Source: a candidate division Zixibacteria bacterium SM23_73_3 (GTDB taxonomy: Bacteria > Zixibacteria > MSB-5A5 > SM1-73). Taken from it: a stretch of 43,419 nt of DNA. The notes beneath the pieces were generated by a model, which searched no databases, had not been told where the DNA came from, and saw only the letters and a list, made by a program, of their open reading frames with translations. A program made the translations under genes and the position numbers. Positions 32,208-37,028 of this stretch are shown here, one piece after another. The stretch covers positions 1 through 43,419 of the forward strand of contig LJUX01000005.1 in assembly GCA_001304155.1 (NCBI GenBank), in the 5' to 3' direction. Position 1 is the first letter of the stretch. Each line of letters opens with the position of its first letter.

Positions 32208-33674
32208 CTACTCCTGTCTTTTCCATCTCACGTTCAATTCCCTCGCCGCTTTTCCGTCATCCAGACGGGTAACCGGGGTATTCTGCGGAGCAGACTTCAC
32301 AACCTCCGGATTTTCCTCCACCTCTTTGGCTATCTGAATCATAGCCTTTATGAACTCGTCCAAGCTCTCTTTACTTTCCGTCTCTGTGGGTTCTATCATC
32401 AAAGCTTCGGGAACGATCAAAGGAAAATAGACTGTGGGTGCATGCAGTCCAAAGTCTAAAAGCCTTTTGGCGATATCCAGAGTTTTCACCCCTTTTTCTC
32501 TTTGCTTCACCCCGGACAGGACGAACTCATGCTGGCAAACATCATCATAGGGAAGATTATAATAGTCTTTTAAGTTTTCTTTTAAATAATTAGCGTTGAT
32601 TATCGCATTTTCACTAACTTCCCTTAAGCCTTTTGCTCCAATCTGGCGAATGTAGGCGTAGGCTTTGACCATCACCCCGAAGTTTCCGTAGAAGCCATGC
32701 ATTCGTCCGATCGACAGAGGACGTTTGTAATCTAAATAGTATTCCGCCAAACTTTTTCTATTGATTCGTTTTGCCACCATAGGAACAGGCAAAAAGGGAG
32801 CTAAATTTTCCTTCACTCCTAACGGACCGGAACCGGGTCCTCCCCCCCCGTGAGGGGTGGAAAAAGTCTTGTGTAAATTGAAATGAACCACATCAAACCC
32901 CATATCTCCTGGTCTTGCTATCCCCATCATAGCATTAAGGTTAGCCCCATCCATATAAAGTAATGCTCCAGCATCACGCACCACTTTGGATATCTCCAAA
33001 ATTTGAGATTCAAACAGTCCCAAAGTATTGGGATTGGTGAGCATCAAAGCTGCCACCTCTTCACTCATCACTCTTTTTAATTCCTCCACATCCACCAGAC
33101 CCTTTTGGTTGGACTTAACCTGAATGGTAGAGAAACCGGCGGTGACCACAGAGGCGGGGTTGGTGCCGTGAGCGGAATCAGGTATTATCACCTTTGATCG
33201 GGGTTTTTTATTCCTCCTATGAAATGCATTGATCATCAAAAGACCGGTCAACTCACCGTGTGCACCTGCGGCTGGCTGTAGGGTGATTTGATCCATTCCA
33301 GCAATTTCCTTCAGATATTCCCCCAACTCGAACATCAAATTGAGAGCTCCCTGAAGGGTGTCTTCTGGTTGATAAGGATGAAGATTCAAGAATCTAGGGA
33401 GACGAGACAGGGTCTCGTTTATCTTGGGATTATATTTCATGGTGCATGAACCCAGAGGATAACACCCCTTATCCACGTGATGATTCAAAATGGAAAGCCT
33501 GATAAAGTGCCGGGCAACATCCACCTCACTCACTTCTGGCAGTGCCGGTGGATTCTCCCTCAATAATTTTTTAGGAATCAATTCCTCAACATCCCTTGCA
33601 GGCACATCCGCCAAAGGAAGTGAAAAACCTTTTCTTCCCGGCGAAGACAGTTCAAACAGCAATTTTTCGATCAT
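32208..33674 (-). CDS. gcvPB: Glycine dehydrogenase (decarboxylating) subunit 2
   Basis: A 488-residue PLP-dependent half of the two-subunit P-protein. It decarboxylates glycine and passes the aminomethyl group to lipoyl-GcvH. The PLP lysine lies in [20 protein letters not shown], with [13 protein letters not shown] and [10 protein letters not shown] as further family marks. CAGGAG lies 9 bp before the ATG. Between it and subunit 1 lie a TGA-containing thioredoxin-like lipoprotein gene and a zinc-ribbon gene, an unusual interruption. Confidence 0.96.
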
Positions 33675-33826: not shown

Positions 33827-33863
33827 ATCCGTTTGATCCGCTGACCGTTTAGTCCGTTGACCC
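33827..33863. repeat. CCGTT-type repeat array overlapping a gene end
   Basis: Units ATCCGTTTGATCCGCTGACC and TTTAGTCCGTTGACC run across the stop codon of the gene ending at 33849, so the repeat supplies its last residues (STD) and stop. Confidence 0.45.
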
Positions 33864-34700
33864 TTTAAGCCCTTTTATCTTATCTTTAACCCAAGTTGTA
33901 TCTGGCGAATCCGGATGCTGGATCAGAAACTTTTCATAAAGTTCTAAGGCTTTGGTAGTGTCCCCGTCTTTAGCGTAACAATAAGGAATATACGCCTCAG
34001 CATCAGTGGCCATTTCGCTTTTCGGGAACGTTCGCAAAAAGTGTTTGAAAGCATCCACTGCCTTCATATACTCCTTTTCTCTCACCCCGAGCCAGGCTAA
34101 GCTAAATGCCGCATCGTCGGAATTTCCCTTCTCGTCCTCCGGGTCCAGGTCCACTACCTTATTGTAATATGTACGAGCTTCCTCATACATCCGTCGCCCC
34201 TCGTACTTCTCTGCCAATTGAAAAGCCAGTTCCGCATCTTTGGGATCAGCTTCGAATCTCGTCTTGAGATCGTCTAAGGTGTTTTTGCCCTGCAGATAAT
34301 CCTGAATGGTCGTAATAAACTTCTCTGGCGGGAGATAACCGTAAATTCTATCTATTTCCTCACCAGAGCTGTTCAATAGTATTACCGTAGGGAAGCCTGC
34401 AATCTGATATCGTTCTCTGGTTATAGTGTCCTCTTTTGCTTCCGCTCTTACAAAGACCATATTTGTGGAGAGGTCAATAACCCTCTGATGGGTAAAGGTT
34501 GAATCCTCCAACCTCTTGCACCACTTTCACCCATCCGACCAGAACTCGGCAACAACAGGTTGATCTTTTTCTATTGCGAGGCTGAAGGCATCCTCGAGTG
34601 AGGAAGCCCACTTTATCTCGGGAGGAGCTTGCTGAGCACATGAATTCAAAAACACAAACCCCAGAAACAAAACTATCCCTCTCCAAACAACGTATTTCAT
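33849..34700 (-). CDS. Thioredoxin-fold/TPR lipoprotein, probable UxxC selenoprotein
   Basis: One continuous frame runs from the ATG at 34700 to 33849, interrupted only by a TGA at 34527-34529. Read through, it gives a 283-residue lipoprotein: signal peptide with lipobox LNSC, a thioredoxin-like domain (about 30-125; FWSDG-TGA-KWCKRLEDSTF, then FPTVILLNSSGEEIDRIYGY) and TPR repeats to the end (AELAFQLAEKYEGRR, YYNKVVDLDPEDEK, ALELYEKFLIQHP). The TGA, codon 58, falls on the first Cys of CxxC; relatives of this domain read WCxWCKRL there. An SECIS-like hairpin follows at 34494-34516. The second half keeps normal coding character, so decay is unlikely. GGAAG precedes the ATG at 34700. It should be a periplasmic thiol-disulphide protein. 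Alternatives: TGC-to-TGA mutation or base error. Confidence 0.8.
34494..34516 (-). promoter_or_regulatory. Bacterial SECIS-like hairpin
   Basis: On the mRNA, an 8-bp stem AGAGGUUG / CAACCUUU (one G-U pair) closes the 7-nt loop GAGGAUU. The GG of the loop lies 21-22 nt after the UGA, close to its place in the E. coli fdhF SECIS (19-20 nt). The element lies inside the coding sequence, as bacterial SECIS elements do. Confidence 0.72.
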
Positions 34701-34741: not shown

Positions 34742-35098
34742 TTAAAGGTCTCTCACGGTCTGTTCTTTTATGGCTAAACTCTCCTCATATTTCTCCATCG
34801 GGACATAGATTTTGTATCCCCCTTTTCTTTTTGCCACATATCCCAACCCTTCCTCAAAGAAACTCCCCGAAGATTTCATATAACAGGGTATGTTGCTATT
34901 CTCTAAGGTCTCTTTTAGAAATTCGGCGTAGACCTTATTTCGGGTGGTGTATAAAAGGACTAAACCCTCCGGCACCTCCTCATTCAGTTCTTCTAAGTCT
35001 GCATCCTCTGGAAGTTCCTCCACCAGATCGCATTCGCAATCCGGGCATCTCTTTGTCCCTGCGCCGTATTCTGCATGGCATAAAGGACAGAACGGCAT
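34742..35098 (-). CDS. Zinc-ribbon plus DUF2007 protein
   Basis: A 118-residue protein. An N-terminal zinc ribbon (FCPLCHAEYGAG, CPDCECD) is joined by an acidic linker (LPEDADLEELNEEVPEG) to a DUF2007-type domain (LLYTTRNKVYAEFLKETLENS trimmed, IPCYMK and YKIYVPMEKYEES). DUF2007 is a small ferredoxin-like fold thought to be a signal or binding module; the function is unknown. AAGGAG precedes the ATG. It lies between gcvPA and the selenoprotein candidate. Confidence 0.85.
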   Translation of the reverse strand: MPFCPLCHAEYGAGTKRCPDCECDLVEELPEDADLEELNEEVPEGLVLLYTTRNKVYAEFLKETLENSNIPCYMKSSGSFFEEGLGYVAKRKGGYKIYVPMEKYEESLAIKEQTVRDL

Positions 35099-35185: not shown

Positions 35186-36541
35186 TCAATATCCTTTGAA
35201 GCAGGTGAGTTTCCTCAGTTCATCTACCAGATGGTCAATCTCCTCTTTGGTCCTTTTCTCCGTGACGCACACCAGCAGATGATTTTTCAATTTTCGATCG
35301 AAACGGCTTAAATCTATTCCGGCAAAGATGTTTCTTTTCAAAAGTGATCTTACAATCCTCTTTGGAGAAAAAGGAGTCTCTATTACGAACTCTTTAAAGA
35401 AGGGAGCATCAAATCTTTTTTTGAAGCCATCAATCCGGCTTATCTGTTCTGTCGCATAATGGCTTTTTTGTAGACAAAATTTTGCTACTTTTCTTATTCC
35501 AGATTTTCCCATGAGGGAAAGATACACGCAGGCAGAAAGGGCACATAATGCTTGATTGGTGCAAATGTTGGAGGTAGCCTTCTCCCTTCTTATGTGCTGT
35601 TCTCTGGTTTGAAGGGTCATAACGAACCCCCTTTTCCCCCGGGTATCGGTTGTAGCCGCCACAATCCTCCCCGGCATCCTTCTGATCAAAGACCGCCTGC
35701 AGGCGAAATACCCCAAATACGGACCTCCAAGATTCAGGTTAGTGCCCAATGCCTGTCCTTCTCCTACTGCAATGTCCGCATTGAACTCCCCTGGTGTTTT
35801 CAAGATTCCCAAGGATATGGGATCGCAAACCAAAATTACAAGCGCTCCCACGGAATGAGCCAAGGGTTCTATCTCCCCGACGTTCTCTAACAATCCAAAG
35901 AAATTCGGGGTTTGAACGATGACACAGGAAACTTTATCGGATAGCTTCTTCTTGGTCTCTTCAACATCAACCAATCCTTCCACCAAAGGGAGCGATCTCA
36001 CCTTTATTTTAATTGATCCACAATAGGTATTTAAGACGTCTCTGTAATTAGGATTTAAAGACCCTGCTACTAAAACCTCATCTCTTCCGGTATGGGCGTG
36101 TGCCAACAGAGTCGCCTCCGCGGCGGCGGAAGCTCCATCATACATGGAGGCATTTGCCACGTCCATGCCGGTCAACTCACAGATTAGAGATTGAAACTCA
36201 TAGATGGTCTGAAGCGTTCCCTGGCTCACTTCAGCCTGATAAGGGGTATAAGCAGTGTAATACTCGGATCGGGAGATTATGTGGTCAACTATGGCAGGGA
36301 TGAAGTGATCGTATGCTCCTCCACCCAAAAAACAGATCATCTGACTGGCATCCTTACTCTGATTTGCCCTCTCCCCTAAAAGTTTAGTTAACTCCATCTC
36401 GGATAAAGACGGTGGAAGTTTTAATTCATCCCGCAGGCGGACAGAATCGGGAATTGCACCAATCAATTCAGAGAACTCCCTCACCCCGATTTTCTCCAGC
36501 ATCTCTTTTCGATTCTGCTCGGTATTGGGCACGTAGCTCAT
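35186..36541 (-). CDS. gcvPA: Glycine dehydrogenase (decarboxylating) subunit 1
   Basis: About 451 residues, the other half of the split P-protein. Marks are SYVPNTEQNRKEMLEKIGV at the N-terminus, FLGGGAYDHFIPAIVDHI, YTPYQAEVSQGTLQTIYEFQ trimmed, and GRIVAATTDTRGKRGFVMTLQTREQH in shortened form. It pairs with GcvPB to form the active enzyme. The ATG at 36541 gives the family N-terminus; an in-frame TTG lies four codons upstream. gcvH is immediately upstream; gcvT is absent from the window. Confidence 0.95.
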   Translation of the reverse strand: MSYVPNTEQNRKEMLEKIGVREFSELIGAIPDSVRLRDELKLPPSLSEMELTKLLGERANQSKDASQMICFLGGGAYDHFIPAIVDHIISRSEYYTAYTPYQAEVSQGTLQTIYEFQSLICELTGMDVANASMYDGASAAAEATLLAHAHTGRDEVLVAGSLNPNYRDVLNTYCGSIKIKVRSLPLVEGLVDVEETKKKLSDKVSCVIVQTPNFFGLLENVGEIEPLAHSVGALVILVCDPISLGILKTPGEFNADIAVGEGQALGTNLNLGGPYLGYFACRRSLIRRMPGRIVAATTDTRGKRGFVMTLQTREQHIRREKATSNICTNQALCALSACVYLSLMGKSGIRKVAKFCLQKSHYATEQISRIDGFKKRFDAPFFKEFVIETPFSPKRIVRSLLKRNIFAGIDLSRFDRKLKNHLLVCVTEKRTKEEIDHLVDELRKLTCFKGY

Positions 36542-36629
36542 AATGCCAAACAATTAAAGGTTTAAGTCAAAGTCTCCTGACTGTTCACTGCCTACTGCAG
36601 ACTGCCAGCTGGAAACTACTTTCTATTCT

Positions 36630-37028
36630 TTATGTTTGACTCTCCACCAACTTCCTGTAATCTGCTGGTGACAGAAGGGTATCCAATTCCTTTGGATCCT
36701 CGACCTTAATCTTAATGATCCAGCCTTCTCCATAGGGATCGGTGTTGATCAAATTCGACTGCGACTCAAGTTTGGAGTTTACCTCCCTCACCTCTCCGGT
36801 AATCGGAGAGAAAAGATCTGATACCGCCTTCACCGCTTCGATTACTCCGAACGGTTTCATTTGCTCCACCTGGGTTCCCACCTCAGGCAACTCTATAAAT
36901 ACCACATCTCCCAGTTGCCTCTGGGCATAATCGGTGATCCCCACTGTGGCAACGTCATCCTTCAATTTCACCCACTCGTGCTCTTTGGTATATTTTAGAT
37001 CATCTCTGATCTGGATACTTGCTTCCAC
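36630..37028 (-). CDS. gcvH: Glycine cleavage system H protein
   Basis: A 132-residue lipoyl carrier protein that shuttles the aminomethyl group between P, T and L proteins. The lipoylated lysine is K67 in IEAVKAVSDLFSPITGEV. Other family marks are YTKEHEWVKL and NTDPYGEGWIIKI. It starts with GTG at 37028, backed by AAGGAGG 4-5 bp upstream. Only 60 bp separate it from accC; no glycine riboswitch fits in this gap. Confidence 0.97.
   Translation of the reverse strand: MEASIQIRDDLKYTKEHEWVKLKDDVATVGITDYAQRQLGDVVFIELPEVGTQVEQMKPFGVIEAVKAVSDLFSPITGEVREVNSKLESQSNLINTDPYGEGWIIKIKVEDPKELDTLLSPADYRKLVESQT

Follow-up and report, generated by a model that had tools for sequence, protein, structure and literature searches.

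A candidate selenocysteine-containing thioredoxin-TPR family linked to glycine-cleavage genes in the Zixibacteria

The window analysed here covers positions 1 to 43,419 of contig LJUX01000005.1 of candidate division Zixibacteria bacterium SM23_73_3. On its minus strand lies a gene (33849..34700) in which the UGA at codon 58 very probably encodes selenocysteine (Sec), a comparison of homologous sequences pointing strongly to a genuine selenoprotein gene. The strongest evidence that this is more than a chance event is comparative: of 126 homologous loci, 69 have a TGA at this very codon. The predicted product is an exported thioredoxin-like protein with a C-terminal TPR region, and its gene stands between genes for the two glycine decarboxylase subunits. 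An automatic annotation would probably truncate a gene of this kind at the TGA.

The gene and its reading frame

Read from the ATG at 34700 to the TAA at 33849-33851 (minus strand), the coding sequence yields 283 amino acids with the in-frame TGA (34527..34529, minus strand) taken as Sec58. The first-pass annotation had proposed that a single TGA interrupts a frame that stays protein-like for a further 225 codons and that it falls on the first Cys of a redox motif. Reading through the minus strand confirmed both, with residues FWSDG-U-KWC-KRL around the site, Sec58 in the first position of a UxxC motif (UKWC) and Cys61, by sequence and alignment the presumed resolving Cys, at 34518..34520 (minus strand). 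TGA is not reassigned throughout, because 13 of the 30 minus-strand open reading frames (ORFs) of the window end in it. Scanning the whole window returned 17 places at which an in-frame TGA is followed by a long open frame, and among these only the Sec58 gene was examined further.

Distribution of the family and the codon at the Sec site

All 132 genomes of the phylum have a family match at E<=0.001, although a number of these matches are distant or partial; the best full-length or near-full-length matches were fetched as loci. The homologous codon, read at 126 loci of 119 genomes, is TGA in 69, TGC or TGT in 54 and a Ser codon in 3. This count leaves out L015 (a duplicate of L018) and three loci that do not cover the site (L167, L173 and L176); for 13 of the 132 genomes no fetched homologue covers it, weaker matches not having been fetched. 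Loci without the TGA most often have Cys at this position, the pattern that the first-pass annotation had said would favour Sec. The unrelated residues or extra stops that it had named as grounds against Sec amount to Ser at 3/126 loci, and early further stops are absent: the frame stays open for 222-267 codons past the TGA in 68 of the 69 TGA rows, while the remaining row leaves its contig. Seven genomes hold two family members, one with Sec and the other with Cys or Ser. The three Ser forms at the Sec/Cys position are L035 (in G010, which has a separate Sec copy), L083 (G114) and L117 (G117).

A second, longer thioredoxin-TPR family with open frames of approximately 395-445 amino acids was observed in the same phylum, and TGA stands at its first active-site Cys in 6/6 loci (L203-L208, from G043, G079, G095, G049, G069 and G111), a rate that is biased because the loci were picked for a flagged TGA. 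Outside the phylum, TGA also occurs at the aligned active-site Cys of the thioredoxin-TPR-like L198 (G323), L199 (G326) and L200 (G235), and Cys forms scoring more than 315 bits were found in G132, G209 and G267.

A SECIS-like hairpin downstream of the UGA

A bacterial-SECIS-like hairpin with a 10-bp stem and a GGA loop is predicted at 34494..34516 (minus strand), 11-33 nt 3' of the UGA, its loop starting after 20 nt and its GG lying at +21/+22. The first-pass annotation had described an 8-bp stem with loop GAGGAUU and GG at 21-22 nt; the hairpin and the position of its GG stand, but the stem and loop are revised as above, the earlier version being the same hairpin minus two closing pairs. According to the portion of PMC13188914 consulted, the published bacterial model asks for a G within the first two positions of the loop, a distance of 16-37 nt from the UGA and an energy of <= -7.5 kcal/mol. 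Scored with a purpose-written script after that model, not with bSECISearch, the window hairpin agrees with it at -8.9 kcal/mol. Its stem core is the same in L019 and L020, and its energy was equalled by 10 of 1500 synonymous recodings; the 62-nt stretch alone is not unusually stable (z -0.95, with 33/200 dinucleotide shuffles as good).

Across the family, hairpins were sought whose loop starts with a G at a distance of 16-37 nt from the codon; this comparison excluded L178 and the three Ser forms. At <= -5 kcal/mol such a hairpin occurs in 50/69 TGA genes versus 6/53 Cys genes (Mann-Whitney p 4e-12, only a guide because the sequences are related), and at <= -7.5 kcal/mol in only 15/69 and 2/53, respectively; six of the 69 TGA genes have none under the criteria used. 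The largest clade, f8, has seven stem pairs that are standard in every one of its 32 distinct TGA sequences (224/224 cells); in the 19 Cys sequences of this clade they are standard in 108/133 cells. At pair 18/33 of this stem, 22 of the distinct Sec sequences have G-C and the other 10 have C-G, figures that count sequences and not independent changes, and the switch couples the wobble base of one codon to whether Phe or Leu is encoded five codons later. Of the nine pairs counted, the outer two are unconserved in the f8 Sec forms (5/32 and 16/32). Clades other than f8 have different stems and loop positions, which may reflect independent origins or drift. Judging from these comparisons, the hairpin would direct decoding of the UGA as Sec by tRNA-Sec and SelB.

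Machinery for selenocysteine insertion

The bin that holds the window (1.88 Mb in 90 contigs, 82% complete) contains a tRNA-Sec at bases 15-108 of its contig, scoring 68.9 bits, above the Rfam cut-off, with anticodon TCA. A search of the same genome for the Sec machinery, suggested earlier as a check, was thus answered for the tRNA; a search for selA, selB and selD in the bin, 82% complete, found none of the three genes, and they are present in most relatives. In the close relatives G104 and G106, tRNA-Sec, selD, selA and selB follow in that order on one strand, and G105 has tRNA-Sec, selD and part of selA. By the order and direction seen in G104-G106, the side on which the sel genes would follow the tRNA-Sec runs off the bin's contig; this argument is drawn from that order and direction only, because no counterpart of the 459-codon ORF adjoining the bin's tRNA-Sec was found within the 12 kb surrounding the cluster in G106.

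Among the 132 genomes of the phylum, tRNA-Sec was detected in 105, selB above cut-off in 113, selA above cut-off in 116 and selD in 117. The corresponding numbers for the 69 genomes with a TGA form are 59 for tRNA-Sec, 63 for selA (counted at E<=1e-25), 62 for selB and 63 for selD, at least three of the four being present in 63; here selB was counted above cut-off or as fragments of 200-236 bits (four phylum genomes), and EF-Tu-like matches were removed by hand. Over 119 genomes, carrying the TGA form and having a tRNA-Sec detected are not significantly associated (Fisher p 0.16). Within f8, tRNA-Sec was not detected in 8/19 Cys genomes versus 3/32 Sec genomes, a difference that, as a post hoc hand count, is only suggestive. 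Four TGA-form genomes (G069, G095, G098 and G127, the last rated 100% complete) have no detected tRNA-Sec, selA or selB, and assembly gaps or a recent loss of Sec decoding are possible explanations for their TGA forms.

The selD genes of the phylum are of two kinds, namely frames mostly of 330-470 amino acids with one TGA and frames of approximately 734-902 amino acids without TGA; the longer ones look like fusions, and several genomes have both kinds. Error or decay is possible in a selA with one internal TGA (G059:C64:9741-11075) and in a selD with a TGA and a TAA (G058:C34:28860-29774).

Alternative readings of the TGA

Were the TGA a true stop, the locus would be either a pseudogene or a pair of separate ORFs, the real gene then being the downstream one, of 220 codons and with a TTG start. 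Such a TTG-started ORF does exist (33849-34511), and the copies in the four TGA-form genomes without detected tRNA-Sec, selA and selB could be dying. The recurrence of TGA at one codon in 69/126 loci, with the frame and flanking residues conserved on both sides, argues against this, as does a covarying hairpin found mainly in the TGA forms; moreover, a product started after the TGA would have no leader and only half an active site. We regard a true stop as very unlikely. An error of sequencing or assembly that turned TGC or TGT into TGA is scarcely conceivable: the same-genus G107 does carry TGT at the site, but TGA stands at 69 loci of 69 genomes, including the same-family G104 and G105 at 63% identity, which effectively excludes error for the family, and the hairpin evidence weighs against it as well.

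It is also highly improbable that an altered tRNA reads the UGA as Cys or another standard residue in place of Sec. Cys is indeed the commonest alternative at the site, and selA was not found in the bin that holds the window; against this stand the bin's own tRNA-Sec above the Rfam cut-off, selA in 63/69 and selB in 62/69 TGA-form genomes, and hairpins that fit SelB-dependent insertion. Pseudogene, sequencing error and code change were rejected as the main reading on the recurrent TGA, the hairpin, and the tRNA-Sec and sel genes, and we retain the insertion of Sec at codon 58 as the preferred one.

Exchange of selenocysteine and cysteine

With codon 58 read as Sec, Sec and Cys replace each other repeatedly at this site across the phylum. 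A tree of 123 proteins, built with the Sec column masked and without L178-L180, implies at least 18 changes between the Sec and non-Sec states; it is a quick tree, with 54 of 120 inner branches starred and 30 drawn open, and the direction of changes was not inferred from it. Close pairs differ in state, namely G000 (the window gene) and G107, G068 and G067, G053 and G054, and G011 and G012. All seven stem pairs are retained in six of the 19 f8 Cys genes, and in five of these six genomes tRNA-Sec was not detected. In G054 the hairpin is identical to that of its Sec sister G053, and tRNA-Sec, selA and selB were not detected in this genome. The simplest reading of an intact stem behind a Cys codon is a recent change from Sec to Cys.

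Remnants of this sort were reported earlier in other families, in the portion of PMC1794560 consulted, which counts 15 Sec-to-Cys events in four families and 33 Cys-to-Sec events in 17 families, and section 10 of PMC13188914 calls the Sec-to-Cys change rare in bacteria. Because sister pairs differ and complete stems persist behind Cys codons, the costs and benefits of Sec can be compared between close relatives. The family thus offers a natural series for the open question of Sec/Cys exchange.

Architecture, export and possible activity

The protein opens with a hydrophobic leader and a lipobox-like LNSC ending at Cys21 (34638..34700, minus strand), recognized in the sequence and in a comparison of leaders across homologues. 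A thioredoxin domain follows at approximately residues 36-134 (34299..34595, minus strand), where PF00085 and PF13098 both match the window protein over cut-off (Thioredoxin 38.7 bits, Thioredoxin_2 44.4 bits), and then a TPR region at approximately residues 149-272 (33885..34256, minus strand), with TPR_14, TPR_6, TPR_2, TPR_19 and YfiO above cut-off. The leader, thioredoxin domain and TPR tail proposed from the window alone are supported by these Pfam matches, by the alignment and by leader counts: a hydrophobic leader is found in 115/123 family members versus 7/175 neighbouring ORFs, and the product would accordingly be exported. The window protein is probably lipid-anchored at Cys21; lipid anchoring is not general in the family, because only 51/123 members have a lipobox-like motif. 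Positions C58, C61 and P104 are invariant in a 35-row alignment, P104 being what we take to be the cis-Pro of the thioredoxin fold, and over all 126 rows position 61 is Ser in six (L035, L038, L087, L092, L117 and L166). An AlphaFold model built from two sequences was poor (pLDDT 54.7).

Sec58 and Cys61 would together form a UxxC thioredoxin active site in which, by analogy with thioredoxins, Sec58 would be the attacking nucleophile and Cys61 would resolve the mixed selenide-sulfide. We give roughly an even chance to a reductase that acts on disulfides or on oxidised thiols, either in the periplasm or at the outer membrane, with clients or a partner docked by the TPR tail. Under the same reading of the codon, the family could instead consist of exported chaperedoxins, TPR holdases that carry a redox site like CnoX, and not of specific disulfide reductases. 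The order of thioredoxin and then TPR in the window protein fits this idea, as does the union of chaperone and redox functions in CnoX (PMC6282202, in the portion consulted); the export of the family, its glycine-cleavage neighbours and the absence of any CnoX/YbbN model or chain among the matches listed tell against it, and we consider it rather unlikely.

Genetic linkage to glycine cleavage

The gene order in the window is gcvH (36630..37028; PF01597, E 7.6e-48), gcvPA for glycine decarboxylase subunit 1 (35186..36553; PF02347, E 3.1e-133), a DUF2007-like neighbour immediately upstream (34742..35098; PF09413, 26.4 bits against a cut-off of 25.7), the selenoprotein gene and, downstream, gcvPB for subunit 2 (32208..33674; GcvP2_C and GDC-P), all on the minus strand. 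A gcvPB start lies within 300 nt downstream in 108 of the 120 loci with room, and both genes are present (gcvPA with its end no more than 1000 nt ahead of the Sec codon, gcvPB within 300 nt) in 68 of the 80 loci with room on both sides. The 12 exceptions comprise seven Sec copies whose genomes also hold a second family member, four loci with gcvPB only, where gcvPA is farther off or was not found, and one with neither. DUF2007-like matches occur upstream in 58/85 loci with room. Outside the phylum, L190 of G188 is a TGA form followed directly by a gcvPB that shares 72% identity with that of the window, and transfer or a wider ancestry of this gene pair is possible on sequence similarity.

The order gcvPA, DUF2007, selenoprotein, gcvPB points to co-expression with glycine cleavage. 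It does not imply direct contact, since the selenoprotein product would be exported. A bolder proposal, which we hold to be improbable, is that the family could be a dedicated extracytoplasmic Sec redox partner of glycine cleavage, anchored at the surface or in the periplasm, made in step with the decarboxylase and disposing of or sensing thiol electrons on glycine oxidation, with Sec or Cys used according to local selenium supply.

Comparison with known systems

A 2026 catalogue lists 119 prokaryotic selenoprotein families and subfamilies (PMC13188914, Table 1). UxxC thioredoxins and PF13098 proteins are among them and a TPR fusion is not, and the words 'TPR' and 'tetratricopeptide' have no occurrence in that paper. 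Its selenocysteine thioredoxin (PF00085) and Thiol:disulfide interchange protein (PF13098) share the fold and have Sec first in UxxC, as here, whereas the window family differs by its leader for export, its TPR tail and its linkage to gcvPA and gcvPB. UxxC thioredoxin selenoproteins are thus known, and the TPR-fused, exported, glycine-cleavage-linked family is absent from the 119 families as catalogued there. A thioredoxin-TPR selenoprotein is not described in the open-access titles and abstract openings searched, and the passages of PMC8318568 that mention Zixibacteria name it only as a reconstructed bin.

The window protein falls below the cut-off of each of the 25 NCBIfam models listed as matches. 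The best of them is TsoB (NF045694, rhodanese/DsbD-fusion-like), matched at its C-terminal positions 440-570 of 572 with 60.6 bits against a family cut-off of 805; the window protein is therefore not TsoB. It has a TPR tail, and the motif of TsoB is UxxxxU. The C-terminal thioredoxin domain of DsbD is matched with 48 bits (NF001419, positions 459-571), and DsbD chains are among the PDB profile matches; only this single domain is matched, and the window protein differs in its TPR tail and Sec. CnoX/YbbN shares the thioredoxin-TPR order and is cytoplasmic, whereas the window family is exported, by its leader counts, and often contains Sec. The Trx7/PDZ (seleno)protein NF041199, a listed selenoprotein family, also fuses a thioredoxin-like domain to a protein-binding domain, with CxxU and PDZ in contrast to the TPR here (14 bits against a cut-off of 300). 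Because no TPR fusion is catalogued and no listed NCBIfam model is reached, the window protein would be of the known UxxC kind with a new variation in architecture. The selenoprotein list would thereby gain a domain architecture, in a selenoprotein that is widespread and genetically linked within a phylum known here from metagenome bins.
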